Shown piece after piece: positions 2,175 through 12,915 of a stretch of 12,934 nucleotides of DNA (the stretch's first letter is position 1; each line of letters begins with the position of its first letter). This DNA is from Alphaproteobacteria bacterium (GTDB taxonomy: Bacteria; Pseudomonadota; Alphaproteobacteria; Micropepsales; Micropepsaceae), in NCBI GenBank assembly GCA_947455695.1, contig CANGRN010000011.1, positions 1-12,934 of the forward strand, written 5' to 3'. The notes below the pieces were generated by a model, which was given only the letters and a program-made list of their open reading frames with translations, was not told the DNA's origin and did no database searches. A program made the translations under genes and the position numbers.

Positions 2175-4034
2175 TCAGATCGCTTCCAGCAGTTCTTCGC
2201 GGATCGCGCGCGGAAAGCTGACGGTGATGCGCGTGCCGCGGCCGCGGGCACTGTCGATCACGATGTTGCCCTTGTGCAGGTCCACCAGCGCCTTGGTCAG
2301 CGGCAAGCCCAGACCCGTGCCCTCATAACGGCGCTCCAGCCGGTTATCGACCTGGCTGAAGGGCTGGAAGGCGATCTCGACATCCTCCGGGTCCATGCCG
2401 ATGCCGGTATCGGCCACCGTGACCGCGATGCTGTCGGCGGTCGAGCAGGCATCGAGCGAGACCCTGCCGCCTTTTTCCGTGAACTTGATGGCGTTGGACA
2501 GCAGATTCAGGAAGATCTGGCGCAGCTTGGCGGCATCGCCCGTCATCGGCAGCGCATGGTCCATGCCCGTGACCGAAAGGGTCAGGCCCGCCTCGGCGCA
2601 TTGCTCGCGGATCATGGTGATGCAATCCTTCAGCACATCGCGCATGTCGGTTTCGCGCGCCGCCAGCACCATCTTGCCCGCTTCGCTCTTGGACAGGTCC
2701 AGCACGTCGTTTATCACCGCCAGCAGGTGCCGGCCGCTGCGCAGGATATCGCCGGAATAGTCCAGGTATCGCGCATTGCCCAGCGCGCCAAAGAACTGGC
2801 CGGAAATGATTTCCGAAAAACCGATGATGGCGTTCAAAGGCGTGCGCAGTTCGTGGCTCATATTGGCCAGGAACCGGGTCTTGGAGGCGTTGGCGGCTTC
2901 GGCCTCGCGCTTGGCGCGGCGCAGGGATTCCTCGCGCTCCTTGATGGCGGTGAAGTCGGACAGGAAGATGATCGAGCCGCCTTCGGAGGTGGCGCTGCCG
3001 GTCATGCGCAGCCAGCGGCCATCGGCCAGCTCCAGTTCGGCATGGCCCGAGGTGTTGATGTCCTCGCTTGGGGCCTGGGTGGGGGCAAGCTGTCCCTGAA
3101 TGAGCTCCAGCGCGGTGTCGAACTGGGTGCCCGGCATCAGCGAAAAGGCGATGTTGGGGAAAAAGCCGCGCAGGGTGGAATTGGACATCACGATCTTGCC
3201 GTCCGGCGCCACCAGCATCACGCCTTCACGGCTGGTCTCCAGCGCGTCCACCAGGCGGTTCTCGGCGGAGCGGCGCAGTTCTTTTTCCCGCGTCATGGCC
3301 TCGCGGATATTGTCCTGCATCACCGTCATGGAATTGAGCAGGGTGCCGGTTTCGTCGCGGCCGCCGCGCGGAATTGGTGTTTCCAACTGGCCATTGGCAA
3401 TGCGGTCGGCGACGGTGGCGGCGGCGCGCAGCGGACGCACGATGCGGCTGCGCAGGAGCCAGGTCAGGCCCGCCGACAACAGCAAGGCGAAAATGGTGAT
3501 CGCGATGCTGGCATATTTGAAATGGCTGATATTGGTGACGGTCTGGCGGCGGCCGATGTAGCTGTGATCGGTGTTGAACTCGATCAGCAGATCGAATTCG
3601 CCGTCGATCTGCTGGTCCAGATTTTCCAGCTCCTTGATGTCGCCGCGGGTGCGCGCCGCGCGCCAGCGTTCAAACAGGGGCTTGATCTTGGCGATGACCT
3701 TCTGCTCGTCCGCCTCAAGACTGCGCTGGGCGGCGACGTCCAGGTCGGCGCTGAAGGTGTCGGCCAGCTCGGTGATTTGCGCCGTGATGGCCGCACGGTC
3801 AGCCGGCGCTGCGTGTTCGAAACGCAACTCGGCCAGCTGCATCTCGGTAAAATCGGTCTGGGCGGCGCGCGCATAGTTGATCGCCATCAGCGGGCCATCG
3901 AAAGTCGTCACCGCGATGGTGCCGGCCGCCGACAGCACGCCATAGCCCGCAAGCCCCATCACACCGATGATGGCGCTCATGGCGGCGAAGGCGCCGAAGA
4001 TCTTGGCGCCGATGGTGTACTTGGCAAGTTGCAT
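2175..4034 (-). CDS. Membrane-bound PAS sensor histidine kinase
   Basis: A 619-residue transmitter kinase. Order of parts: TM1 (about 10-33), a helical periplasmic sensor of about 140 residues resembling the four-helix-bundle input domains of chemoreceptors, TM2 (about 174-195), HAMP (about 196-248), a PAS-like domain (about 260-365), then HisKA with the H-box NMSHELRTPLNAIIGFSE (phospho-acceptor His394) and HATPase_c with N-box NLLSNAIKF (507-518), G1 DTGIGM (542-547), F-box FQPFSQVD and G2 GTGLGL (572-577). All catalytic boxes are intact. There is no receiver domain and no response regulator gene in the window, so it is an orphan kinase here. The ATG at 4034 has only a weak RBS, but the TIGAKIFGAF segment just after it matches usual starts of such proteins. 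It lies 109 bp downstream of the second cupredoxin on the same strand; read-through from the haem/copper operon is possible. The periplasmic ligand is unknown. Confidence 0.93.
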   Translation of the reverse strand: MQLAKYTIGAKIFGAFAAMSAIIGVMGLAGYGVLSAAGTIAVTTFDGPLMAINYARAAQTDFTEMQLAELRFEHAAPADRAAITAQITELADTFSADLDVAAQRSLEADEQKVIAKIKPLFERWRAARTRGDIKELENLDQQIDGEFDLLIEFNTDHSYIGRRQTVTNISHFKYASIAITIFALLLSAGLTWLLRSRIVRPLRAAATVADRIANGQLETPIPRGGRDETGTLLNSMTVMQDNIREAMTREKELRRSAENRLVDALETSREGVMLVAPDGKIVMSNSTLRGFFPNIAFSLMPGTQFDTALELIQGQLAPTQAPSEDINTSGHAELELADGRWLRMTGSATSEGGSIIFLSDFTAIKEREESLRRAKREAEAANASKTRFLANMSHELRTPLNAIIGFSEIISGQFFGALGNARYLDYSGDILRSGRHLLAVINDVLDLSKSEAGKMVLAARETDMRDVLKDCITMIREQCAEAGLTLSVTGMDHALPMTGDAAKLRQIFLNLLSNAIKFTEKGGRVSLDACSTADSIAVTVADTGIGMDPEDVEIAFQPFSQVDNRLERRYEGTGLGLPLTKALVDLHKGNIVIDSARGRGTRITVSFPRAIREELLEAI

Positions 4035-4143: not shown

Positions 4144-4446
4144 CTATCTCACATGCACCGTCATGCGCATCGTGGGATGGATGTGGCACCGGACCTGGAA
4201 GGTGCCCGATCTTGGAAAGGTCTCGTTAAGATTTTCGCCCGGGGCCTTCTCGTCGGAATCGAACAGCCCGTCGACATAGATCTGGTGGATATAGCTGTCG
4301 TCGTTGGTGAAGGTGACGGCCTCACCCCGGTTGACGGTGACGTCGGTGGGACGGAAGGCCCGATTTTTCTGGGTCACCACGGCATCGGCGGCGGCCGGGC
4401 CGATGGCCAGGACAAGACCGAACGCGGCAAGAAACAGCGCTTTCAT
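4144..4446 (-). CDS. Periplasmic cupredoxin, amicyanin-like (second copy)
   Basis: A 100-residue small blue-copper-type protein. Residues 1-20 are a Sec signal peptide ending AAA before DAVV. The mature part of about 80 residues has the cupredoxin beta pattern with likely type 1 copper ligands His54 (in IHQIY), Cys87, His90 and Met93; the C-x2-H-x2-M spacing is the one known from amicyanin, shorter than in plastocyanin or pseudoazurin. Such proteins are often labelled 'methylamine utilization protein', but no mau genes are present, so that name says nothing about function. It starts 9 bp after the stop of a close paralogue, and its AGGA ribosome site overlaps that stop (TAGGA). By hand, about 47 of 79 mature positions are identical between the two copies. 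Predicted role: single-electron carrier or copper-binding protein in the periplasm; partner unknown. Confidence 0.87.
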   Translation of the reverse strand: MKALFLAAFGLVLAIGPAAADAVVTQKNRAFRPTDVTVNRGEAVTFTNDDSYIHQIYVDGLFDSDEKAPGENLNETFPRSGTFQVRCHIHPTMRMTVHVR

Positions 4447-4455
4447 GTCGGGGTC

Positions 4456-4761
4456 CTAATTGGCATGCACCACAAGTTTCATCTTGGGATGGATATGGCA
4501 GCGTACCTCAAAGGTGCCCGCCTGGGGGAAGTTTTCCACCAAGGTCTGGCCCGGCACGCGCTCATCGGAATCGAACAGGCCGGTGACATAGATCTGGTGG
4601 ATGAACTCGTCATTGTTGGTGAAGGTCAGGCTTTCGCCCCGGCGGATGGTGATCTCGCCCGGATTGAAGCGGCGGCCTTTCTGCACGATGGTGGCATCGG
4701 CGAAGGCGGCTGACGCCATCAGGGGCGGCATCAGCAGCAAGAGACAGAACAGCGCTTTCAT
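4456..4761 (-). CDS. Periplasmic cupredoxin, amicyanin-like (first copy)
   Basis: A 101-residue exported protein, paralogue of its downstream neighbour. The signal peptide (1-21, ending AFA) is followed by a cupredoxin fold with likely copper ligands His55, Cys88, His91 and Met94, again in amicyanin spacing. All four ligands and the motif HQIYV-GLFDSDE, shared by both copies, are conserved, so both should bind copper. Divergence is concentrated in surface charge: for example the segment after the Cys-His-x-His-Pro is KMKLV here and TMRMT in the other copy. The ATG overlaps the stop of the truncated haemoglobin gene (ATGA, 4 bp), implying translational coupling of the haem and copper proteins. 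It could transfer electrons to or from the haemoglobin or a terminal enzyme; this is inferred from gene order only. Confidence 0.87.
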   Translation of the reverse strand: MKALFCLLLLMPPLMASAAFADATIVQKGRRFNPGEITIRRGESLTFTNNDEFIHQIYVTGLFDSDERVPGQTLVENFPQAGTFEVRCHIHPKMKLVVHAN

Positions 4762-5171
4762 CGCGACACGACCTGGCGCTGCATGGGCGCCAGACGCGCC
4801 AGGAACCGGTTCTGGGTGGCGGACGGCAAGCCGATCCTGTCCATCGCATCCTGCAGGTCTTCGACCACGGCGTTGAAATTGGCGTTGGTCAGGTGCAGCC
4901 CCTTGTGCGCCGCGGTCATGTCATGGCCCTTGTAGTCGCACGGTCCGCCCGCCACCTGGCAGAACTGGACTTTGAATTCGGCGCGCAAACGGTCGATGTT
5001 GGATTCATCGAAGATCGCCTTGATGCGACCGTCGGCCAGGTAATTGTCCACCGACGCATCCACGATCCGGTCGATCCCGGCCTGACCGCCCATGTCGGCG
5101 AACAGCGTGTCTTCAGCGAATGCCGGCGCCGCCGTCAGCAGCAGAAAACCAAGCGCAATCGAACGTTTCAT
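4758..5171 (-). CDS. Exported group 1 truncated haemoglobin
   Basis: A 137-residue protein. The start at 5171 is chosen because AAAGGA lies just upstream and residues 1-19 then form a clear signal peptide (MKRSIALGFLLL..AFA, cut before EDTLF); an upstream in-frame ATG at 5258 would add 29 residues read from inside the DUF3034 gene. The mature part follows the TrHb1 pattern: a FADMGGQAGIDRIV start, LADGRIKAIF with the CD1-type Phe54, the GGPCDYKGHDM turn, then proximal His89 in AAHKGLHLT and an F-x-A-VVEDL helix. Aligned by eye to mycobacterial TrHbN, the usual distal Tyr at B10 appears to be Val41, and two cysteines (71 and 78) sit in the E-F region. Export is unusual, since the best-studied truncated haemoglobins are cytoplasmic NO or O2 proteins. 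It sits 13 bp after the DUF3034 gene and overlaps the cupredoxin gene by 4 bp. Confidence 0.9.
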   Translation of the reverse strand: MKRSIALGFLLLTAAPAFAEDTLFADMGGQAGIDRIVDASVDNYLADGRIKAIFDESNIDRLRAEFKVQFCQVAGGPCDYKGHDMTAAHKGLHLTNANFNAVVEDLQDAMDRIGLPSATQNRFLARLAPMQRQVVSR

Positions 5172-5184
5172 GTGCGGTCCTTTC

Positions 5185-6048
5185 CTACAGCCCGGCCTGC
5201 AGCGACAGATAGGCGCCATGCTGGCCATCCCGGATGGCGATGTTGCCCAGGTCGGCATAAGCCGCCGTCACGGACAGGTTCTTGTCGAAGAAATAGGCGG
5301 CGAAGATGTCCCAGGCTGCGCCTTCATGGGCGATGCCCAGATTGCTGGGCTTGGTGCGCAGCTCGGCGCCGACCGTGAAGCGGCGGCTGAACAGGTAGGA
5401 AGCCGAGCCTTCGAACTGGCTGCTGTAATCGTTATGCTTGTCGCCGCCGAATCCCAGCAGGCCGAACTGGTTGGCTTTGGTTTCGCGCAAAGTCGCGTTG
5501 ACCAAGACGCTCTCGGCCAGGAACAGCTTGCTGGCGGCAATATAGTAATCGGTCCCGACGCTGTTCTTGCCGCCCAGCGCCGCAATGATCGCGCCGCGGT
5601 CGTTTTCCTTGTGCTGCAGGCCGATGGAAATTTCCGGCAGCCAGCTGTCCTGGTCATAGACCGCATCGCCCAGCAGCTTCAGCTTGGCGCCGAAGATGTT
5701 TTGGTGAAAGGTTAAGCCCTGCCCCACGCCCAGCACGGCGCCGACATTCTGGGTATCGAACCCTTGCCACGCATAGGAGAGTTCCAGAAGGTCGAACAGG
5801 CCGACCGCGATGCCGGCGCTTTGCAGGCCATAGTTGGTCAGCGGCAACACCGTGTAATGGACGTTGGCGCCCACACCATCGCGGGAGCCATAGCCGGTGA
5901 TCATCGCCCAGCTGGCCAGGCCGCTGCCGCCGGCGCCTTCCACCTGGGAAACGCCACCGGTGGCCAGCAGCTTTCCGCTGTCGAACAGTTCGTCGGCCAG
6001 GACTGGGGTGGAGAGACCGAGAAGAGCCAAAAGGGTCAAAAATCGCAT
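5185..6048 (-). CDS. DUF3034 family outer-membrane-type protein
   Basis: A 287-residue protein with a Sec signal peptide (1-18, ending VLA before DELF). Near the mature N-terminus is the GGVSQVEGAGGSGLASWAMI-type block (31-50) followed by TGYGSRDGVGANVHYT, which I recognise as the DUF3034 hallmark. The rest is a run of alternating short amphipathic strands rich in Gly, Tyr, Phe and Leu, such as the SAGIAVGLFDLLELSYAW and SVTAAYADLGN stretches, fitting an outer-membrane beta barrel. The family has no established function. It is the first gene of the envelope haem/copper operon, with an AGAGGG ribosome site before the ATG at 6048, and it is divergent from the initiator tRNA. A barrel at the head of an operon encoding an exported haemoglobin and two cupredoxins could be a channel or anchor for small molecules or metal; that is inference. 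Confidence 0.85.
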   Translation of the reverse strand: MRFLTLLALLGLSTPVLADELFDSGKLLATGGVSQVEGAGGSGLASWAMITGYGSRDGVGANVHYTVLPLTNYGLQSAGIAVGLFDLLELSYAWQGFDTQNVGAVLGVGQGLTFHQNIFGAKLKLLGDAVYDQDSWLPEISIGLQHKENDRGAIIAALGGKNSVGTDYYIAASKLFLAESVLVNATLRETKANQFGLLGFGGDKHNDYSSQFEGSASYLFSRRFTVGAELRTKPSNLGIAHEGAAWDIFAAYFFDKNLSVTAAYADLGNIAIRDGQHGAYLSLQAGL

Positions 6049-6088
6049 GTCGCCCTCTTAGCAAGGCAGCCGTTAAATCGGGCTGAAT

Positions 6089-6116
6089 GGCCCCGCAAGG
6101 GCTTGAAAATGGGGCC
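6089..6116. other. Inverted repeat between DUF3034 and tRNA promoters
   Basis: GGCCCC (6089-6094) and GGGGCC (6111-6116) form perfect 6-bp arms 22 bp apart centre to centre, about two helical turns. It lies 40-70 bp upstream of the DUF3034 ATG, where an operator for that operon would be expected. The arms are short and GC-rich, so chance is a real alternative. No convincing -35/-10 pair for DUF3034 was found. Confidence 0.2.
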
Positions 6117-6128
6117 GAAAAGCGGGAC

Positions 6129-6157
6129 TGGACAGGCCAAGAGGCATGGCCTATACC
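6129..6157 (+). promoter_or_regulatory. Housekeeping promoter of the initiator tRNA gene
   Basis: TGGACA (6129-6134) and TATACC (6152-6157) are separated by exactly 17 bp. Transcription would begin around 6164, about 10 bases before the mature 5' end. The bases after the -10 box are C/G-rich (CCCGCACC), as in stable-RNA promoters under stringent control. Confidence 0.6.
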
Positions 6158-6173
6158 CCCGCACCTTCCGTGA

Positions 6174-6250
<77 letters not shown>

Positions 6251-7053: not shown

Positions 7054-7779
7054 CTACCAGGGCATCACGATGTCGAGCAGCTGGCTGCCATAGCGCGGCT
7101 GCTGCACGTCGCTGACCGTACCCTGGCCGCCATAGATGACACGGGCTTCGGCGATCTGCGCCAGGTTGACGGTATTGTCCTGGGTGATGTCTTCGCGGCG
7201 CACGATGCCTGACAGGCGCATGTCGCGCAGCTCGTTGTTCACGCGCACCTGCTGGTGGCCGTCGATCACCAGGTTACCGTTGGGCAGCACCTGGGCGACC
7301 AGCGCCGCCAACGTCATGCTGATGGATTCCTGGCGCTGGATCGAACCGGTGCCGACATTGGAATTGTCCGAACCCATTTTAACCAGGCTGGTGGGATCGA
7401 GCGTGTTGGGCAGAACCTTCTCAATGCCGAAGAAATTGGTGGCATTGGCATTTTCCGTGTTAGTGCGGGCGCGCGAGGTGGAGTTCTGCATCTTGGCGGC
7501 ATCGGTCACCGAGACATTCACCGTGATCACGTCGCCGATATGCATGGCGCGCGGATCGTGGAAGAAGCTCTGGGCACCGGCCTGCCACAGCGAATTGTTG
7601 ACATGGGTGATGGGCGCCGGGCGCGGGATCTCGGCCACGATGGTCTGGCCGGCGGGGTTGCCGACCCGGGCCATCTGCGGGGCTTCGCCGACGCGTTCCA
7701 GGCGGTCCACCGCCGAGCAGGCGGTCAAGGCGGCGCCGGCCAGGAACAGGGTCGAGATTTTCAGGATCAGGTTACGCAT
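7054..7779 (-). CDS. flgH: Flagellar L-ring protein FlgH
   Basis: A 241-residue lipoprotein that forms the outer-membrane L-ring bushing around the flagellar rod. The signal peptide ends in the lipobox LTAC, giving lipid-modified Cys21. The family pattern follows: SLW near 63-65, DPRAMHIGDVITVNV (about 75-89), a Ser/Thr/Asn-rich stretch, then LVAQVLPNGNLVIDGHQQVRVN-type hairpins and the terminal GTVSDVQQPRYGSQLLDIVMPW, in which WxxQLLDIxxPW-like endings are typical. Length is as expected. It is the last gene of flgF-flgG-flgA-flgH, 23 bp after flgA, with an AGGA-type ribosome site. The P-ring gene flgI is not in the window. Confidence 0.97.
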   Translation of the reverse strand: MRNLILKISTLFLAGAALTACSAVDRLERVGEAPQMARVGNPAGQTIVAEIPRPAPITHVNNSLWQAGAQSFFHDPRAMHIGDVITVNVSVTDAAKMQNSTSRARTNTENANATNFFGIEKVLPNTLDPTSLVKMGSDNSNVGTGSIQRQESISMTLAALVAQVLPNGNLVIDGHQQVRVNNELRDMRLSGIVRREDITQDNTVNLAQIAEARVIYGGQGTVSDVQQPRYGSQLLDIVMPW

Positions 7780-7802
7780 GTACTTATCCTATTGAAGAGG
7801 GC

Positions 7803-8309
7803 CTAACGGCGGGCGAGCTGGTTGATGACGGGAGAAGAGATGGCGCCGGTGGCGCGCACGGTTCCGGGCGCGGTCACGGTGGCCGAAACCATGCGGTAGG
7901 AAACCGGGTTCTGGACGGTGACGGTATCGCCGATGCCGCCTTCGCTCATGGCGCGGCCCATCGCCGACAGCTGCACGCCCGGCACCGCGAATTCCATGGT
8001 CACGGTCTGGCCCTTGGTGACGACGATCGGGCGGCGCACATCGTCGCCACGAAAGGGGCGGCCGGCGCTGAGGGTACGGCGCGCCTGCATGCCCTTCACT
8101 TCTTCCATCTTGGTGGGAAGGCCCGACATCAGGTCGGCGCCGTCCACGGTGGCATAGGTCAGGTCGGATTCGCCGATGGTGTCGCCGCGGGCGATATCGT
8201 GCGCCGGAACCACGACGCGCACCGTGCTGGCAAAGGCGGAACCCGCCAGCAGCAGCAATGCCGGAATCACCGCAAAGACACCGAGAATGAGGAGGAATTT
8301 GCGCGTCAT
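7803..8309 (-). CDS. flgA: Flagella basal body P-ring formation protein FlgA
   Basis: A 168-residue periplasmic chaperone for assembly of the FlgI P-ring around the rod. Residues 1-27 are a signal peptide (cleavage after AFA). The mature part has an N-terminal SAF-type domain (VVVPAHDIARGDTIGESDL, about 32-50) and a C-terminal domain with VVTKGQTVTMEFAVPGVQLS and GGIGDTVTVQN blocks, the usual FlgA hallmarks, ending with the GAISSPVINQL region. It is shorter than the roughly 220-residue enterobacterial FlgA, as is common in this class. Only one base separates the flgG stop from its ATG and its ribosome site GGGAG lies inside the flgG end, so it depends on flgG translation. Confidence 0.95.
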   Translation of the reverse strand: MTRKFLLILGVFAVIPALLLLAGSAFASTVRVVVPAHDIARGDTIGESDLTYATVDGADLMSGLPTKMEEVKGMQARRTLSAGRPFRGDDVRRPIVVTKGQTVTMEFAVPGVQLSAMGRAMSEGGIGDTVTVQNPVSYRMVSATVTAPGTVRATGAISSPVINQLARR

Positions 8310-8310
8310 G

Positions 8311-9099
8311 TTACGCTCCCAACCGGGCGGTGTTCTGCATCATCTGGTCGGCGGCGGAGACGACCTTGGAATTCATTTCGTAGGCGCGCTGGGCGGTGAT
8401 CAGCGCCGTGATCTCGTCCACCGAGTTCACGTTGGAGGTTTCCAGGAAGCCCTGCTGGATGGTGCCGTAGCCGGTGGAGCCGGGCACGCCGGCCTGGGGC
8501 GAACCCGATCCGGGGGTTTCCAGATACAGGTTGTTGCCGATGGCGTTCAGGCCCGCTTCGTTGGGAAAGCGCGTCAGTTCCAGCTGGCCCACCGTCTGGG
8601 GCGTGGAGTTGCCGGCCACGGTGGCGTTGACCTGGCCCTGGGCGTTGATGCTGACGCTGATGGTGTTCTGCGGGATGGCGATGCCGGGCTGCACGACCAG
8701 GCCATCCTGGGTGACAAGCTGGCCCTGCGGCGACAGCGACATGTTGCCCGAGCGGGTATAGGCGTCGGTGCCGTCCGACTGCTGGATGCGGAAAAAACCC
8801 GCCCCCTGGATGGCGACGTCGTAGGGATTGCTGGTCGACTTTAGGTCGCCCTGGGTGGTGATGCGATAGACCGCGGCGGTGCGCACACCGGCACCCAGCT
8901 GGATACCGTTGGGGGCATAGGTGCCCTGGTCGGAGGTCTGCGATCCGGGGGTCTGAATGTTCTGGTACAGCAGGTCGGTGAACTCGGCGCGCTGCTGCTT
9001 GAACGCGGTGGTGTTCATGTTGGCGAGATTATTCGCGATGACTTCGACGTTGGTCTGCTGGGCGAGCATGCCGGTCGAGGCGATGGAAAGGGCGCGCAT
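8311..9099 (-). CDS. flgG: Flagellar distal rod protein FlgG
   Basis: A 262-residue axial protein that forms the distal rod. It has the N-terminal rod signature MRALSIASTGMLAQQTNVEVIANNLANMNTTAFK with the conserved NNLAN motif, a central D1 beta region (TQGDLKSTSNPYDVAIQGAGFF, TRSGNMSLSPQGQLVTQDG), and the C-terminal helix FLETSNVNSVDEITALITAQRAYEMNSKVV. Length matches the family (about 260). Its ribosome site AAGGAG overlaps the flgF stop codon, with 12 bp between the genes. The protein is exported by the flagellar type III apparatus and has no cleavable signal. Confidence 0.98.
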   Translation of the reverse strand: MRALSIASTGMLAQQTNVEVIANNLANMNTTAFKQQRAEFTDLLYQNIQTPGSQTSDQGTYAPNGIQLGAGVRTAAVYRITTQGDLKSTSNPYDVAIQGAGFFRIQQSDGTDAYTRSGNMSLSPQGQLVTQDGLVVQPGIAIPQNTISVSINAQGQVNATVAGNSTPQTVGQLELTRFPNEAGLNAIGNNLYLETPGSGSPQAGVPGSTGYGTIQQGFLETSNVNSVDEITALITAQRAYEMNSKVVSAADQMMQNTARLGA

Positions 9100-9111
9100 A
9101 TCTAGATCTCC

Positions 9112-9861
9112 TTAAACGGGCATCTGGCCAAGCTTTTCGATAGCCTGGCGCATCATGTCTTCCTGGGATTTGGCAAGCGTGGCGGTCGCCTCATAGGCCC
9201 GCATCACCTCGATCATGTGGCTGATCTCGATCACCGGCTGGACGTTGGAGGCTTCCAGCGCGCCCTGGCGGACGCCGGGATTGGCCGGCGCGGTGGGGGT
9301 CTGGTCGGTGGAATAGAGATTGGCGCCCTGCTTCACCAGGGCGCTGGTATCGGCGAAATCGACGACCTTCAGTTTGCCCAGCTGGTTGCCGACACCATTG
9401 ACCACGCTGGAGATGGTGCCGTCAGGGGCAATATTGATGTCGCCGTCATTAGGGGTGATGGTGATGGTGCCGCCATCGCCCTGCACCTGGTAGCCCTGGC
9501 TGGTCACCAGATTGCCATTGGCGTCGAGGGAGAAGTGGCCGTCGCGGGTGTAGCGCATGCCCGAAGGCGTCTGCACCGCGAAGTAGCCCTTGCTGGTCAG
9601 CGCCACGTCATAACGTGCGCCGGTCTGTTCGATATTGCCCTGGCTGGAATCGCGCATCACGCCGGCGCCCTTCACAAAGCTCATGCTTTGCGGACCCGTC
9701 TGGCCTTCGGCCGGACGCAGCTTGGTGATGTATTCTTCGAATTTGGCGGCTTCGCGCTTGAAACCCGGTGTGGAAGCGTTCGCCAGATTGTTGGCGATCA
9801 CGTCCATCGCCCGGTAAGCGGCGAGCTGCTGCGAAAGACTAACGAGAAGTGAATTATCCAT
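9112..9861 (-). CDS. flgF: Flagellar proximal rod protein FlgF
   Basis: A 249-residue rod protein and first gene of flgFGAH. The start at 9861 gives the family N-terminus MDNSLLVSLSQQLAAYRAMD..NNLAN; the open frame continues upstream to 10023, but those 54 codons cross the sigma-54 promoter and are not family-like. Hallmarks are STPGFKRE after the NNLAN helix, YDVALTSKGYFAVQTPSG, YTRDGHFSLDANGNLVTSQGYQV and the C-terminal EASNVQPVIEISHMIEVMRAYEA helix, which carries the usual rod ending. AAAGGA lies nine bases before the ATG. The sigma-54 site ends 38 bp upstream, predicting a leader of about 27 nt. Confidence 0.96.
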   Translation of the reverse strand: MDNSLLVSLSQQLAAYRAMDVIANNLANASTPGFKREAAKFEEYITKLRPAEGQTGPQSMSFVKGAGVMRDSSQGNIEQTGARYDVALTSKGYFAVQTPSGMRYTRDGHFSLDANGNLVTSQGYQVQGDGGTITITPNDGDINIAPDGTISSVVNGVGNQLGKLKVVDFADTSALVKQGANLYSTDQTPTAPANPGVRQGALEASNVQPVIEISHMIEVMRAYEATATLAKSQEDMMRQAIEKLGQMPV

Positions 9862-9898
9862 GGCTCCGGATCCTTTCTGGTCCGACGGATGGAACGTT

Positions 9899-9913
9899 GC
9901 AGCCGCCGTGCCA
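9899..9913 (-). promoter_or_regulatory. Sigma-54 promoter of flgFGAH
   Basis: On the minus strand TGGCAC (9913-9908) is followed by five bases and CTGC (9902-9899): the GG-N10-GC core is exact and only one base departs from TGGCAC-N5-TTGC. Start would fall near 9888, 27 bases before the flgF ATG. Late flagellar operons of Caulobacter and relatives use RpoN with the activator FlbD. Confidence 0.8.
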
Positions 9914-9972
9914 GTCAAAAACACCTGATTTTGTTGGGTTTTGTGGAGCGCGCGCGGCACCTGCGGAAAAAC

Positions 9973-10002
9973 TTGCCGGGCAGCAGCGCGCGCGCCCGGC
10001 AA
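9973..10002. promoter_or_regulatory. Perfect palindrome, candidate enhancer-activator site
   Basis: TTGCCGGGC (9973-9981) and GCCCGGCAA (9994-10002) are exact inverted repeats, 21 bp centre to centre, two helical turns. The centre is about 100 bp upstream of the expected sigma-54 start of flgF, the usual place for an NtrC-family activator such as FlbD. On the minus strand the stem is followed by GTTTTT, so an intrinsic terminator shielding flgF is the alternative reading. Confidence 0.45.
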
Positions 10003-10004
10003 TT

Positions 10005-10023
10005 TGAACCACTCCTTAACCAC
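10005..10023 (+). promoter_or_regulatory. Candidate CtrA box upstream of fliL
   Basis: TGAACCAC (10005-10012) and TTAACCAC (10016-10023) are direct half-sites 11 bp apart, giving TGAA-N7-TTAA against the CtrA consensus TTAA-N7-TTAA (7 of 8). It lies 47-65 bp before the fliL ATG, where early flagellar promoters of Caulobacter carry CtrA sites. A clear -10 box was not found. Confidence 0.5.
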
Positions 10024-10069
10024 GTTTGCATAGGGTGGCCCTCGCAGAGAAACGCATCAGGACCGTTCC

Positions 10070-10618
10070 ATGGCGAAGAAAGAAGCCGCACCGGAAGCCG
10101 AAGAGGGCGAAAAGCCCGAAGGCGAAGGTGCAGAGGCCGCACCGAAGAAGGGGCTGCTTGGAAAACTTCTTTCCAAGAAGATGCTGATGATCGCCGTGCC
10201 GGCACTACTGCTTGTGGTCGGCGGCGGCGGCGCGGGCGCCTACTTCTTCCTCATTAAGAAGAGCGATGCGGCGCACGAGGCCAAAGCCGAAGAAGTCCCT
10301 TTGACCCCGCCCAAGGTCGCGTTCAGCGACATGCAGGACATTCTGGTCAATATCCAGAGCAATGACGGCACCCCCGCCTATCTCAAGCTGGGCGTGTCGC
10401 TGGAACTGGAAGACGAAGAGCAGAAGAAGGCGATGGAGCCTTTGATGCCGCGCATCACCGACCAGTTTCAGGCGTATTTGCGCGAATTGCGCCTGGACGA
10501 CCTCAAGGGCAGCGCTGGCGTGCTGCGCCTGAAGGAAGAATTGCTCCGCCGCGTCAATGTCGCGGCCGCCCCGTACAAGGTGCGCGACGTGCTGCTGAAG
10601 GAAATGATCGTCCAATAA
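10070..10618 (+). CDS. fliL: Flagellar basal body-associated protein FliL
   Basis: A 182-residue single-pass inner-membrane protein that surrounds or supports the stator units at the flagellar motor. A charged cytoplasmic N-terminus rich in Glu, Lys and Ala (1-37) precedes one TM helix (about 38-62, with a GGGGAGAYFF end). The periplasmic FliL domain (about 78-182) has FSDMQDILVNIQS, YLKLGVSLELED, PRITDQFQAYLREL and the typical ending VRDVLLKEMIVQ. Length is usual. It is the first gene of the fliL-fliM operon, divergent from flgF across a 208-bp control region, with a CtrA-like box upstream. The ATG at 10070 is preceded by AGGA (10060-10063). Confidence 0.96.
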   Translation: MAKKEAAPEAEEGEKPEGEGAEAAPKKGLLGKLLSKKMLMIAVPALLLVVGGGGAGAYFFLIKKSDAAHEAKAEEVPLTPPKVAFSDMQDILVNIQSNDGTPAYLKLGVSLELEDEEQKKAMEPLMPRITDQFQAYLRELRLDDLKGSAGVLRLKEELLRRVNVAAAPYKVRDVLLKEMIVQ

Positions 10619-10642
10619 GTTTCGCAAAAAGCGGAAATACTA

Positions 10643-10657
10643 TCCTTAGAACAAGGA
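10643..10657 (+). promoter_or_regulatory. Small hairpin covering the fliM RBS
   Basis: TCCTT (10643-10647) pairs exactly with AAGGA (10653-10657), the Shine-Dalgarno eight bases before the fliM ATG. The stem has five pairs, mostly A:U and G:C mixed, and a five-base loop, so it is only marginally stable. It may modestly limit fliM translation; chance is possible. Confidence 0.25.
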
Positions 10658-10665
10658 CTTAAGAC

Positions 10666-11730
10666 ATGGCCGACGAGACAGAGACCCAAGCCGCAGACGC
10701 CGCTGCTCCCAGCGCGTCGGCGACCTTCGAGAATGCGCCAGACACCGGGGGCACCGCCGAACGCGTCCTGAACCAGGATGAAATCGACTCCCTGCTGGGC
10801 TTTGACGTCAATTCCGACCAGATGCAGGACAAGTCCGGCGTCCGCGCCATCATCAATTCGGCGCTGGTCAGCTACGAACGCCTGCCCATGCTGGAAATCG
10901 TCTTCGACCGCCTGGTGCGGTTGATGACCACGTCCCTTCGCAATTTCACGTCGGATAACGTCGAAGTCAGCCTGGATTCGATCACCTCGATCCGTTTCGG
11001 CGATTACCTGAACTCCATTCCCCTGCCCGCGATCCTGGCGGTGTTCCATGCCGAAGAACTGGACAATTACGGCCTGTTCACCGTGGACTCCAACCTGATC
11101 TATTCGATCGTGGACGTTCTGCTGGGCGGCCGCCGCGGCTCGTCGGCGATGCGCATCGAGGGCCGCCCCTACACCACCATCGAACGCACCCTGGTCCAGC
11201 GCATGATTGAAGTGATCATGCAGGACATGTGCGCGGCCTTCGAACCGCTGGCGCCGGTCAATTTCAGCCTGGATCGCCTGGAAACCAATCCGCGTTTTGC
11301 CGCCATCGCGCGACCCGCCAACGCCGCCATCCTGGTCAAGTTGCGCATCGACATGGAAGATCGCGGTGGCCGCACCGAATTGCTGCTGCCCTATGCCACC
11401 CTGGAACCGATCCGCAAGCTGCTGCTGCAGCAGTTCATGGGCGAGAAGTTCGGCCGCGACTCCATCTGGGAAAGCCATCTGGCGACGGAGCTGTGGTCCA
11501 CCAAGGTTGATATCGAAGCTATCCTGGACGAACAGACCATGCCGCTGAACCAGGTGATGAACCTGGAAGTGGGCCAGACCATGATGCTGGGCGCCGGTCC
11601 CGACTCCAAGATCCAGCTGCGCTGCCGCGGCGTGCCGCTGCTGACGGGCCGCATGGGCCGGGTTGGCGCATCGGTCGCGGTACGCGTGGACGAAGCCATC
11701 GAACGCACGGATGCCTCGCGCATCCTTTGA
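10666..11730 (+). CDS. fliM: Flagellar motor switch protein FliM
   Basis: A 354-residue C-ring protein that binds phosphorylated CheY and passes the switching signal to FliG. The CheY-binding motif LNQDEIDSLLGF lies at 35-46, behind a 34-residue Ala/Glu/Thr-rich tail; in E. coli the equivalent motif is at the extreme N-terminus. The middle domain (about 55-250) has ERLPMLEIVFDRLVR, the DYLNSIPLP block and LLGGRRGSS (152-160), which stands where E. coli has the FliG-contacting GGDG, one residue longer. The SpoA (FliM-C) domain follows (about 275-345: VDIEAILDEQTMPLNQVMNL, then GRMGRVGASVAVRV). It starts 47 bp after fliL. FliN and FliG are not in the window. Confidence 0.97.
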   Translation: MADETETQAADAAAPSASATFENAPDTGGTAERVLNQDEIDSLLGFDVNSDQMQDKSGVRAIINSALVSYERLPMLEIVFDRLVRLMTTSLRNFTSDNVEVSLDSITSIRFGDYLNSIPLPAILAVFHAEELDNYGLFTVDSNLIYSIVDVLLGGRRGSSAMRIEGRPYTTIERTLVQRMIEVIMQDMCAAFEPLAPVNFSLDRLETNPRFAAIARPANAAILVKLRIDMEDRGGRTELLLPYATLEPIRKLLLQQFMGEKFGRDSIWESHLATELWSTKVDIEAILDEQTMPLNQVMNLEVGQTMMLGAGPDSKIQLRCRGVPLLTGRMGRVGASVAVRVDEAIERTDASRIL

Positions 11731-11758
11731 TTTCAACGTTTTTGAGAGAGTCCCACCG

Positions 11759-12166
11759 ATGCATTTTCCCACCGATTTGACGTTTTACCTGGAGCTGGCG
11801 CTGGAAGTGCTGCTGGCCTTCACCCTGGCCTATTGCGTGATCCTGGAGCGCCGCCTGGCGGCCGTGCGCAAGGGACAGGAAGGCCTTTCGCGCACCATCG
11901 GCGAATTGAACATGGCGATTTCGGGCGCCGGTGCTTCGCTGCGCGCGCTGAAGTCCGCCGCCGGTGAAGCTGCCCAAACCCTGGACGAGCGCCTCAAGCG
12001 CGCCCGCCTGCATATCGATGAACTGTCGGTCCTGACCGCCTCGGGCGAACGCATCGCCCAGCGCATGGAAAGCGCCGCCGCGAGCCCGCGCGTGGCCCGC
12101 GAAATTCCGGACATGCCGCTGCCGTCCACCTCGATCCTCAGCCGCCTGGAAAGGGCCGTGCAATGA
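11759..12166 (+). CDS. DUF6468-like one-helix coiled-coil protein of the fliM operon
   Basis: A 135-residue protein. The start at 11759 is chosen because GAGAGAG stands upstream and a TM helix then begins at once (about 8-28, LELALEVLLAFTLAYCVIL); the frame is open further back into fliM, but that part is out-of-frame fliM sequence. A charged RRLAAVRKGQ segment follows, then a long amphipathic, Ala-rich helix (about 40-107) with a regular heptad feel and a short Pro/Ser tail ending SILSRLERA. This matches the DUF6468 family of alphaproteobacterial flagellar clusters. From memory, the Caulobacter polar-placement factor PflI is also encoded among early flagellar genes of this kind; whether this is its orthologue I cannot establish. 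It overlaps the next gene by 4 bp, so the two are probably made together. Confidence 0.75.
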   Translation: MHFPTDLTFYLELALEVLLAFTLAYCVILERRLAAVRKGQEGLSRTIGELNMAISGAGASLRALKSAAGEAAQTLDERLKRARLHIDELSVLTASGERIAQRMESAAASPRVAREIPDMPLPSTSILSRLERAVQ

Positions 12167-12915
12167 AGCCGCGTTTCGCACGCCTTCTCCCCGCCGTTGT
12201 CGGCCTTGGCGCCGTGGTGCTGGTGCTGAAGACCACCGACCTTGTGCATGAAGCCTATGCCGAAGCCGGCGCCCAGGTTGCCGCGTTGACCCAGGAACCG
12301 GTGCCGTCCAACAAGGACTATGCCGGCGGCGAAGACGACCAGGCCGCCAGCGCGTCGCAGGTGGACGTGCTGAATGGGCTTTCCAAGCGCCGCCGCGAAC
12401 TGGACGCCCGTGAAAGCCAGATCAACACCCAGGCCAACATGATCGCCGCCGCCGAAAAGCGCGTCGATGCCAAGATCGCCCAGCTCCAGAAGCTGCAGGC
12501 CCAGATGAATGCCCTGCTGGTGCAGCGCGATGACGCCCAGAAGGCGCAGATCGCCTCCCTGGTGAAGACCTATTCCACCATGAAGGCCAAGGATGCCGCG
12601 CGCATCTTCAACAACCTGCCGGACGAAGTGCTCGTCCCGGTGGCGCATGACATGAAGTCGGACATCATGGCCCTAGTGCTGGCCAACATGAATCCCGACG
12701 CCGCCAAGTCGCTGACCATCAAGCTGGCCGACCGTTTGACCTTGCCGCAGACCACCGATGCGGTGGCCCCTGCCCCGGCGCCCGTTCCGGCGCCGCAGGC
12801 GGCTGCCGCGCCGGCCACCCCGGCCCCCGGAGCCCAGGCTTCCGCGGCCCCGGCCGCCAAGCCGGCCGCGCCCCCGGCACCCGCGCCGGATAAGCAAGCT
12901 GCGCCAAAGGGTTAG
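12163..12915 (+). CDS. MotE-like flagellar-cluster protein
   Basis: A 250-residue protein with an N-terminal signal anchor (about 8-23), a coiled coil (about 66-135, with LSKRRRELDARESQINTQAN and KIAQLQKLQAQ), and a small helical domain (about 133-191, SLVKTYSTMKAKDAARIFNN then LVLANMNPDAAKSLTIKLAD) of the MgtE-N/MotE type. A Pro/Ala repeat tail follows (about 200-250). Genes of this type are annotated MotE after the Sinorhizobium periplasmic chaperone for MotC, reported to work as a disulphide-linked dimer; this protein has no cysteine at all, and no motC is nearby, so the exact role may differ. The ATG overlaps the preceding stop (ATGA). It ends 19 bp before the window edge; no terminator is seen within the window. 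Confidence 0.8.
   Translation: MKPRFARLLPAVVGLGAVVLVLKTTDLVHEAYAEAGAQVAALTQEPVPSNKDYAGGEDDQAASASQVDVLNGLSKRRRELDARESQINTQANMIAAAEKRVDAKIAQLQKLQAQMNALLVQRDDAQKAQIASLVKTYSTMKAKDAARIFNNLPDEVLVPVAHDMKSDIMALVLANMNPDAAKSLTIKLADRLTLPQTTDAVAPAPAPVPAPQAAAAPATPAPGAQASAAPAAKPAAPPAPAPDKQAAPKG

Follow-up and report, generated by a model that had tools for sequence, protein, structure and literature searches.

A 12,934-nucleotide stretch of alphaproteobacterial DNA (the window; its source, contig C11, belongs to an assembly that is 58.8% complete) carries a minus-strand locus for an outer-membrane protein of family DUF3034, an exported truncated haemoglobin (TrHb), two cupredoxins and a membrane sensor histidine kinase (HK). 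On balance, this locus is probably a modular envelope sensory system, with a cupredoxin-receptor core and a DUF3034-TrHb add-on. Defined by genomic linkage, the core is a periplasmic type-1 copper protein and a transmembrane receptor, here a kinase with a 4-helix-bundle (4HB) sensor, HAMP and PAS domains. The add-on, defined in the same way, is a DUF3034 barrel and an exported TrHb with a Cys pair, accompanied here by a cupredoxin of its own clade. These two tight gene pairs are repeatedly associated in several arrangements, with conserved metal ligands and exchangeable signalling outputs. The parts of the locus and its border are as follows.

5185..6048, minus strand: DUF3034 outer-membrane beta-barrel with signal peptide (Pfam PF11231)
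4758..5171, minus strand, ATG at 5171: exported group 1 TrHb with Cys pair and apolar distal site (PF01152, HbN alignment, residue counts)
4456..4761, minus strand: cupredoxin-1, of the TrHb-linked clade, with four type-1 copper ligands (Pfam, ligand pattern, tree)
4144..4446, minus strand: cupredoxin-2, of the clade common to sibling cupredoxin-HK loci, with four type-1 copper ligands (Pfam, ligands, tree)
2175..4034, minus strand: membrane sensor HK with periplasmic 4HB sensor, HAMP, PAS, HisKA and HATPase
6049..6173, no strand: intergenic stretch, the expected promoter place of the long-state locus (the state with DUF3034 and TrHb)
6174..6250, plus strand: tRNA-Met bordering the locus (ARAGORN, synteny)

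A preliminary description of the region had recognised four closely packed genes for exported proteins. Open reading frames (ORFs) and DNA confirmed that these genes are real, lie on the minus strand and are spaced as claimed, with 13 bp between DUF3034 and TrHb, a 4-bp overlap of the TrHb stop with cupredoxin-1 and 9 bp between the cupredoxins. Pfam bore out the DUF3034, bacterial globin and two cupredoxin assignments, the N-termini of all four proteins read by eye as signal peptides, and the proposed outer-membrane barrel is backed by the predicted structure of DUF3034. The DUF3034 profile (PF11231) matched with 312 bits against a cut-off of 25, over positions 1-255 of 255, and Bac_globin (PF01152) matched the TrHb with 53.3 bits against 21. 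Cupredoxin-1 passed both Cupredoxin_1 (27.3 versus 27) and Copper-bind (PF00127; 22.1 versus 21.2), while cupredoxin-2 passed Copper-bind at 29.1 and missed Cupredoxin_1 (25.7 versus 27). With PF00127 above cut-off and the pattern of all four ligands present, both belong to the type-1 copper proteins, as had been described. Assignment to the amicyanin, plastocyanin or pseudoazurin equivalogs was rejected (best match 26.5 bits; NCBIfam cut-offs 87.85-110.2).

The four genes do form a conserved set, but the set had been ended one gene early, and the HK at 2175..4034 completes the locus. This gene is the next on the same strand, 109 bp downstream of cupredoxin-2, a sequence scan found no terminator-like site between the two, and it is part of the same locus as the four upstream genes. 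Its product of 619 residues has two transmembrane segments by hydropathy and matches PF12729, PF00672, PF00512 and PF02518 above cut-off, with PAS (PF12860) below its cut-off; the combination of HisKA, HATPase_c, HAMP and a membrane sensor identifies it as a sensor histidine kinase. No sigma-70-type site was found in 6049..6173.

Neighbourhoods were compared in four samples: 398 genomes drawn from the phylum, 39 of them with DUF3034; 96 genomes of the window's family, with the module present in 19 and absent from 77; eight DUF3034 loci from the class; and the best 80 of 557 relatives on named contigs. Since loci overlap between samples (L010 is L072, L013 is L081, and several family loci are identical to named contigs), the samples are reported apart and never summed.

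DUF3034 and the signal-peptide TrHb proved nearly inseparable in a count of their co-occurrence across genomes, a check that the preliminary description had proposed. A profile of the module TrHb matched 41 of the 398 phylum genomes at 125 bits or more, the next match lying near 90, and these 41 are the 39 DUF3034 genomes plus two others (G329 and G497). The module TrHb thus occurred in 39/39 genomes with DUF3034 and 2/359 without (Fisher 4.6e-52, kinship ignored). In the family, 21 of the 96 genomes matched DUF3034, comprising 18 uninterrupted copies, a full-length one interrupted by an internal stop (G568) and fragmentary ones in G630 and G635; the module TrHb was present in the 19 genomes with non-fragment copies and in 0/77 others, and a generic TrHb (72 bits) was found in G569. 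The TrHb gene lay directly downstream of DUF3034 in 39/39 phylum, 19/19 family, 7/8 class and 78/80 named-contig loci, one of the two named-contig exceptions (L027) being at a contig edge. Such regularity in all 39 phylum loci indicates that the pairing is no chance effect. Pairwise distances of the two proteins were also correlated (r 0.72 over 125 loci; 0/999 permutations as high).

Some copies have decayed (L187, L185, L204, L205 and L297): DUF3034 carries an internal stop or is in fragments, or, in G640, the HK is split over two ORFs. At other DUF3034-TrHb loci, mostly from Xanthomonadales (L046, L056, L077, L090, L095 and others), the pair is adjoined by a sigma factor resembling the extracytoplasmic function type (by eye), with an anti-sigma factor of ChrR-cupin (Pfam, L046) or RskA-like (by eye) type; a Lipoprotein_15 protein (Pfam) stands beside the pair in L077.

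The second tight pair is that of cupredoxin and receptor. A cupredoxin was encoded within 4.5 kb in 33/39 phylum, 19/19 family, 3/8 class and 58/80 named-contig loci, with a receptor gene immediately adjacent to it in 30/39, 16/19, 3/8 and 46/80, respectively (the cupredoxin of L171 is included in the neighbourhood count). Long-type cupredoxin profile matches were found in 38/39 DUF3034 genomes and 34/359 others of the phylum, kinship again ignored. The association extends beyond the module: among 20 loci chosen from 26 cupredoxin matches of at least 100 bits away from DUF3034 (those of G515, G405, G509, G317, G205 and G233 were not taken), the next gene encoded a GGDEF/EAL protein in 13, and in two more the neighbouring genes were sensor-like by eye. 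In L266 (6877-8106) and L267 (6625-7836), a long cupredoxin is followed by an exported protein of ~405 residues that resembles an outer-membrane barrel, in place of a receptor.

The receptors differ in output. It is an HK in the window's family, a cyclic di-GMP phosphodiesterase in most of the phylum sample and, once, a chemoreceptor. Twenty-five proteins share the window-type 4HB sensor (27 before omission of L021, incomplete, and L149, weak): 21 are HKs, three are GGDEF-EAL proteins and one is a methyl-accepting chemotaxis protein (L036), and a few invariant charged residues of the sensor are kept across outputs. All 51 cupredoxin-adjacent GGDEF-EAL proteins (52 with L015, which was omitted) have both EAL and GGDEF domains, 49 have dCache_3 and 46 have HAMP. 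The residues that we take to be EAL-catalytic are invariant in all 51 of these phosphodiesterase-type receptors, and the GGDEF motif is degenerate in 36 of a set of 60 GGDEF-EAL proteins. In one genome only (L010), an HK runs through a third hydrophobic segment into a cupredoxin domain.

Gene order varied between groups. The usual order in the phylum sample is cupredoxin, GGDEF-EAL, DUF3034, TrHb, all on a single strand; in Sphingomonas and Caulobacter relatives, cupredoxin and GGDEF-EAL are divergent from DUF3034 and TrHb; and in the window's family the order is DUF3034, TrHb, cupredoxin, HK. The module also occurs on plasmids (13 records with DUF3034), among them a Novosphingobium copy in the divergent order and a Caballeronia copy annotated as DUF3034, group 1 truncated hemoglobin, methylamine utilization protein and EAL. 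The neighbourhood is thus conserved across genomes, and the scattering that the preliminary description had named as evidence against the set was not seen.

The window's family contains two states of the site. A 4HB HK was found in 32 of the 96 genomes: in every one of the 19 that have the module and in 13 that lack it. A cupredoxin gene immediately precedes the HK in 12 of these 13 (the exception is G613, which holds two HK copies, one of which was taken into the comparison) and also in G640, where DUF3034, TrHb and a cupredoxin are on one contig and cupredoxin-HK is on another. In 12 of the 14 HK regions (the 13 module-less genomes and G640) a tRNA-Met lies beyond the cupredoxin, just as one marks the edge of the scanned long-state loci, and most of the 14 are flanked by neighbours of the window, encoding a PH-domain protein (Pfam) and FtsK-like, DksA-like and FlgH-like proteins (by eye). 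The shared flanks and cupredoxin-HK pair show that sibling genomes hold the same site without DUF3034 and TrHb, a short state. Partial second tRNA-Met matches lie beside the bordering tRNA-Met at L287:4527-4565 and L291:3960-4011, and ARAGORN calls a second tRNA-Met in L291. In the window, flagellar-type genes (named by eye) follow at 7054-12915, on the far side of the tRNA and DksA-like genes.

A tree of 37 cupredoxins, many of whose forks are unresolved, placed cupredoxin-1 in a clade of eight, all TrHb-linked (support 97/96), and cupredoxin-2 in a clade of six (99/94) that includes three short-state copies; cupredoxin-2 shares 94% identity with one of these, L293 of G607. Five loci have two cupredoxins, and in each the first belongs to the TrHb-linked clade and the second to a wider cupredoxin-2 set of eight (98/87). 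The cupredoxins of long loci with only one sort less cleanly; in L190, L194 and L201 the HK is preceded by a single cupredoxin, of the cupredoxin-1 type. On the simplest reading, two halves, each bringing a cupredoxin, met at the window site. They might have met without functional unity, a DUF3034-TrHb(-cupredoxin) cassette having merely landed by a cupredoxin-HK pair near a tRNA gene and been co-inherited with it. Short and long states, the separate contigs of G640 and the plasmid copies are all consistent with this, but genes of these kinds come together in no fewer than three arrangements in distant groups, and five of the six phylum genomes that lack a local cupredoxin hold one elsewhere; we consider simple co-inheritance highly improbable.

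The copper sites are almost invariant. The four-ligand test was passed by 29/30 short and 75/76 long cupredoxins; of the two failures, the short protein is a shadow ORF and the long one (L171) has odd ligand spacing. One short 'cupredoxin' of L015 is such a shadow ORF; the true one there, of 226 residues, lies directly before the EAL gene. Such constancy, the receptor that adjoins the cupredoxin and the barrel in the outer membrane would also suit a sensor of copper or haem availability, in which metal occupancy of the cupredoxin is the signal, the barrel imports metal or haem and the TrHb stores haem or acts as a haem-dependent check. This is quite unlikely. Type-1 sites serve in electron transfer rather than as exchangeable sensors, the TrHb is hard to fit in, and no CueR-like site was found upstream of DUF3034. 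The HK itself was rejected as a copper/silver sensor kinase (CzcS/SilS/CopS, TIGR01386), scoring 118.6 bits against a cut-off of 292.55.

The haem protein of the module is a group 1 truncated haemoglobin, by its Bac_globin match, its proximal His F8 and its closest solved relatives, HbN and other group 1 globins (PDB 1idr, 2gkn and others); its profile aligned with HbN without gaps over 114 positions. In a set of 129 distinct sequences, two of which are pieces of a broken gene (L049), the proximal haem-ligand His was kept in 129/129. Two Cys, at E16 and just past the GGP turn, were both present in 118, both missing in nine and single in two (118, eight and one of 127 when the L049 pieces are excluded). 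Their joint presence is the expectation for a disulphide, which most module TrHbs probably carry. An N-terminal hydrophobic segment passed a simple test in 114/127 (L049 pieces omitted), and the other 13 were mostly signal-peptide-like by eye; large in-frame ORFs (901 aa in L159) were treated as open-frame extensions, not fusions. Positions of the distal pocket were taken from the gapless alignment and globin residue numbering. B10 is V, M, L, I or T in 124/129 (Val in the window), E11 is L or F in 127/129 (Phe in the window), CD1 is Phe in 124/129 and G8 is L, V or I in 124/129. Given this apolar pocket, the module TrHbs look unusual; they are probably fast proteins that retain O2 weakly and do not act as NO dioxygenases. 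The HbN type of NO dioxygenase, judged by residues TyrB10/GlnE11, was rejected as a candidate function. Across the set, haem and copper binding are predictions from conserved ligands.

Solitary TrHbs with the Cys pair and signal- or lipoprotein-like N-termini, and with no DUF3034 in the stretch, were seen at L238:7058-7654, L239:7249-7695, L242:6048-6632, L243:6483-6956 and L244:6643-7224. Two other TrHbs inspected (L240 and L241), which have no signal peptide, lack the Cys as well, suggesting a possible link between the pair and export. In small genomes (~1.6-3 Mb) of family f166 (G237:C44, G276:C14, G361:C6 and others), generic group 1 TrHb genes stand in tandem pairs or triplets.

Redox-capable haem and type-1 copper proteins whose genes overlap by 4 bp could instead form a periplasmic detoxification or electron-transfer chain, in which the TrHb reduces O2, NO or peroxide with cupredoxin electrons and the kinase merely regulates. 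A cable-bacterium TrHb, periplasmic and linked to O2, is proposed as an oxygen reductase in the relevant passage of PMC12093952. Such a chain is nevertheless unlikely here: the recurrent neighbour clusters, a minority of which were searched for families, yielded no recognisable electron donor such as a cytochrome, the residues that HbN uses in NO dioxygenation are missing from the TrHb, and the cupredoxin-receptor pair persists where the TrHb is absent. We prefer a redox or gas sensor to a catalytic chain, since in loci that lack the haem half it is the receptor that remains beside the copper protein. The preliminary description had suggested a self-contained redox chain of the four exported proteins. 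As the main reading, a stand-alone chain was rejected: the usual partner of the cupredoxin is a membrane signal transducer, and cupredoxin and HK exist together without DUF3034 and TrHb. What survives of that interpretation is that the exported haem and copper proteins and the barrel form a conserved set.

In the sensory system that we favour, the DUF3034 barrel would admit or anchor. The haem of the TrHb, in a fast, apolar, non-dioxygenase pocket, would bind a small ligand (O2 or NO) or react with an oxidant, and the TrHb would set the redox state of the cupredoxin through electron transfer. In one redox state, the cupredoxin would dock on the periplasmic domain of the receptor and switch the kinase. 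We infer both that the TrHb feeds the cupredoxin and that the cupredoxin signals to the receptor, as well as the identity of the signal. Tentatively, the system may be an envelope sensor of a new class: an exported disulphide globin with an apolar haem pocket would translate the binding of a gas or oxidant into the redox state of a copper protein that diffuses and is read by interchangeable receptors (kinase, cyclic di-GMP phosphodiesterase or chemoreceptor), with a dedicated outer-membrane barrel.

Several observations weigh against a sensory role. Eight receptor-like genes beside a long cupredoxin, mostly in Xanthomonadales, encode proteins with no output domain in Pfam and a weak or no sensor or HAMP match (L055, L061, L062, L066, L071, L073, L077 and L090); signalling alone does not account for these genes. 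No receptor of the sought types was found within 4.5 kb in 7/39 phylum, 4/8 class, 2/19 family and 27/80 named-contig loci, some of these at contig ends. The sensor type varies between clades (4HB, dCache_3), the cupredoxins of single-cupredoxin long loci do not always group with cupredoxin-1 (L202 groups with the short-state L290, 97/80), and G256 has DUF3034 and no cupredoxin of this type. The co-occurrence counts and the Fisher test ignore kinship between genomes. No direct clue to the signal emerged: FNR-, NnrR-, CueR- or NsrR-like sites were found in the 350 bp upstream of DUF3034 in 0/19 family loci, and the same motifs gave only a loose FNR match in one of the 80 named-contig loci (shuffled mean 0.15). 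The copper nitrite reductase NirK is unlinked to the module in the family (2/19 with, 11/77 without). NO sensing tied to denitrification was rejected on this absence of a NirK link in the family; NO reductase and NirS were not searched.

The gene set is apparently widespread in bacteria and undescribed, within the literature searched. There, no publication on DUF3034 function was found, nothing was found on 'methylamine utilization protein' together with GGDEF, and the only exported or periplasmic truncated haemoglobin was that of the cable bacterium (PMC12093952, in part); a figure legend in PMC12548924 mentions DUF3034, apparently, from the portion at hand, as a slip for DUF3037. Three poorly named families (DUF3034, the exported TrHb and the cupredoxin annotated as a methylamine utilization protein) gain a common, testable context. 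If the sensory reading is true, bacteria sense periplasmic gas or redox state with soluble haem and copper proteins and thereby control motility, biofilm or a kinase. The occurrence of long and short states in a single genus provides a natural experiment on the contribution of the haem half.

The likeness of the module TrHb to the cable-bacterium protein lies in periplasmic placement, compared by description and not by sequence, and the passage of PMC12093952 on that protein names no DUF3034, cupredoxin or receptor partner. HbN resembles the module TrHb in its gapless alignment and invariant proximal His; the module TrHb differs in its signal peptide, its Cys pair (118/127 whole sequences), its apolar B10, E11, CD1 and G8 and its lack of TyrB10/GlnE11. 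The cupredoxins share His...Cys-x2-His-x2-Met and sequence matches with amicyanin, plastocyanin and the cupredoxin domain of a copper nitrite reductase; they differ in having a signalling receptor as partner. Receptor systems with a periplasmic partner include NspS-MbaA, which responds to polyamines through a GGDEF-EAL protein, and YfiR-YfiN. As in these systems, in the former by the part of PMC8967002 that describes it, an exported partner is encoded beside a membrane receptor, with HK or cyclic di-GMP output. The resemblance is one of design, and here the partner is a copper protein, joined by an exported globin and an outer-membrane barrel. Gene adjacency and the single HK-cupredoxin fusion (L010) are the observations that bear on whether the window set may be a partner-receptor system of the NspS-MbaA kind, in which the exported partner would bind the receptor and alter its output.

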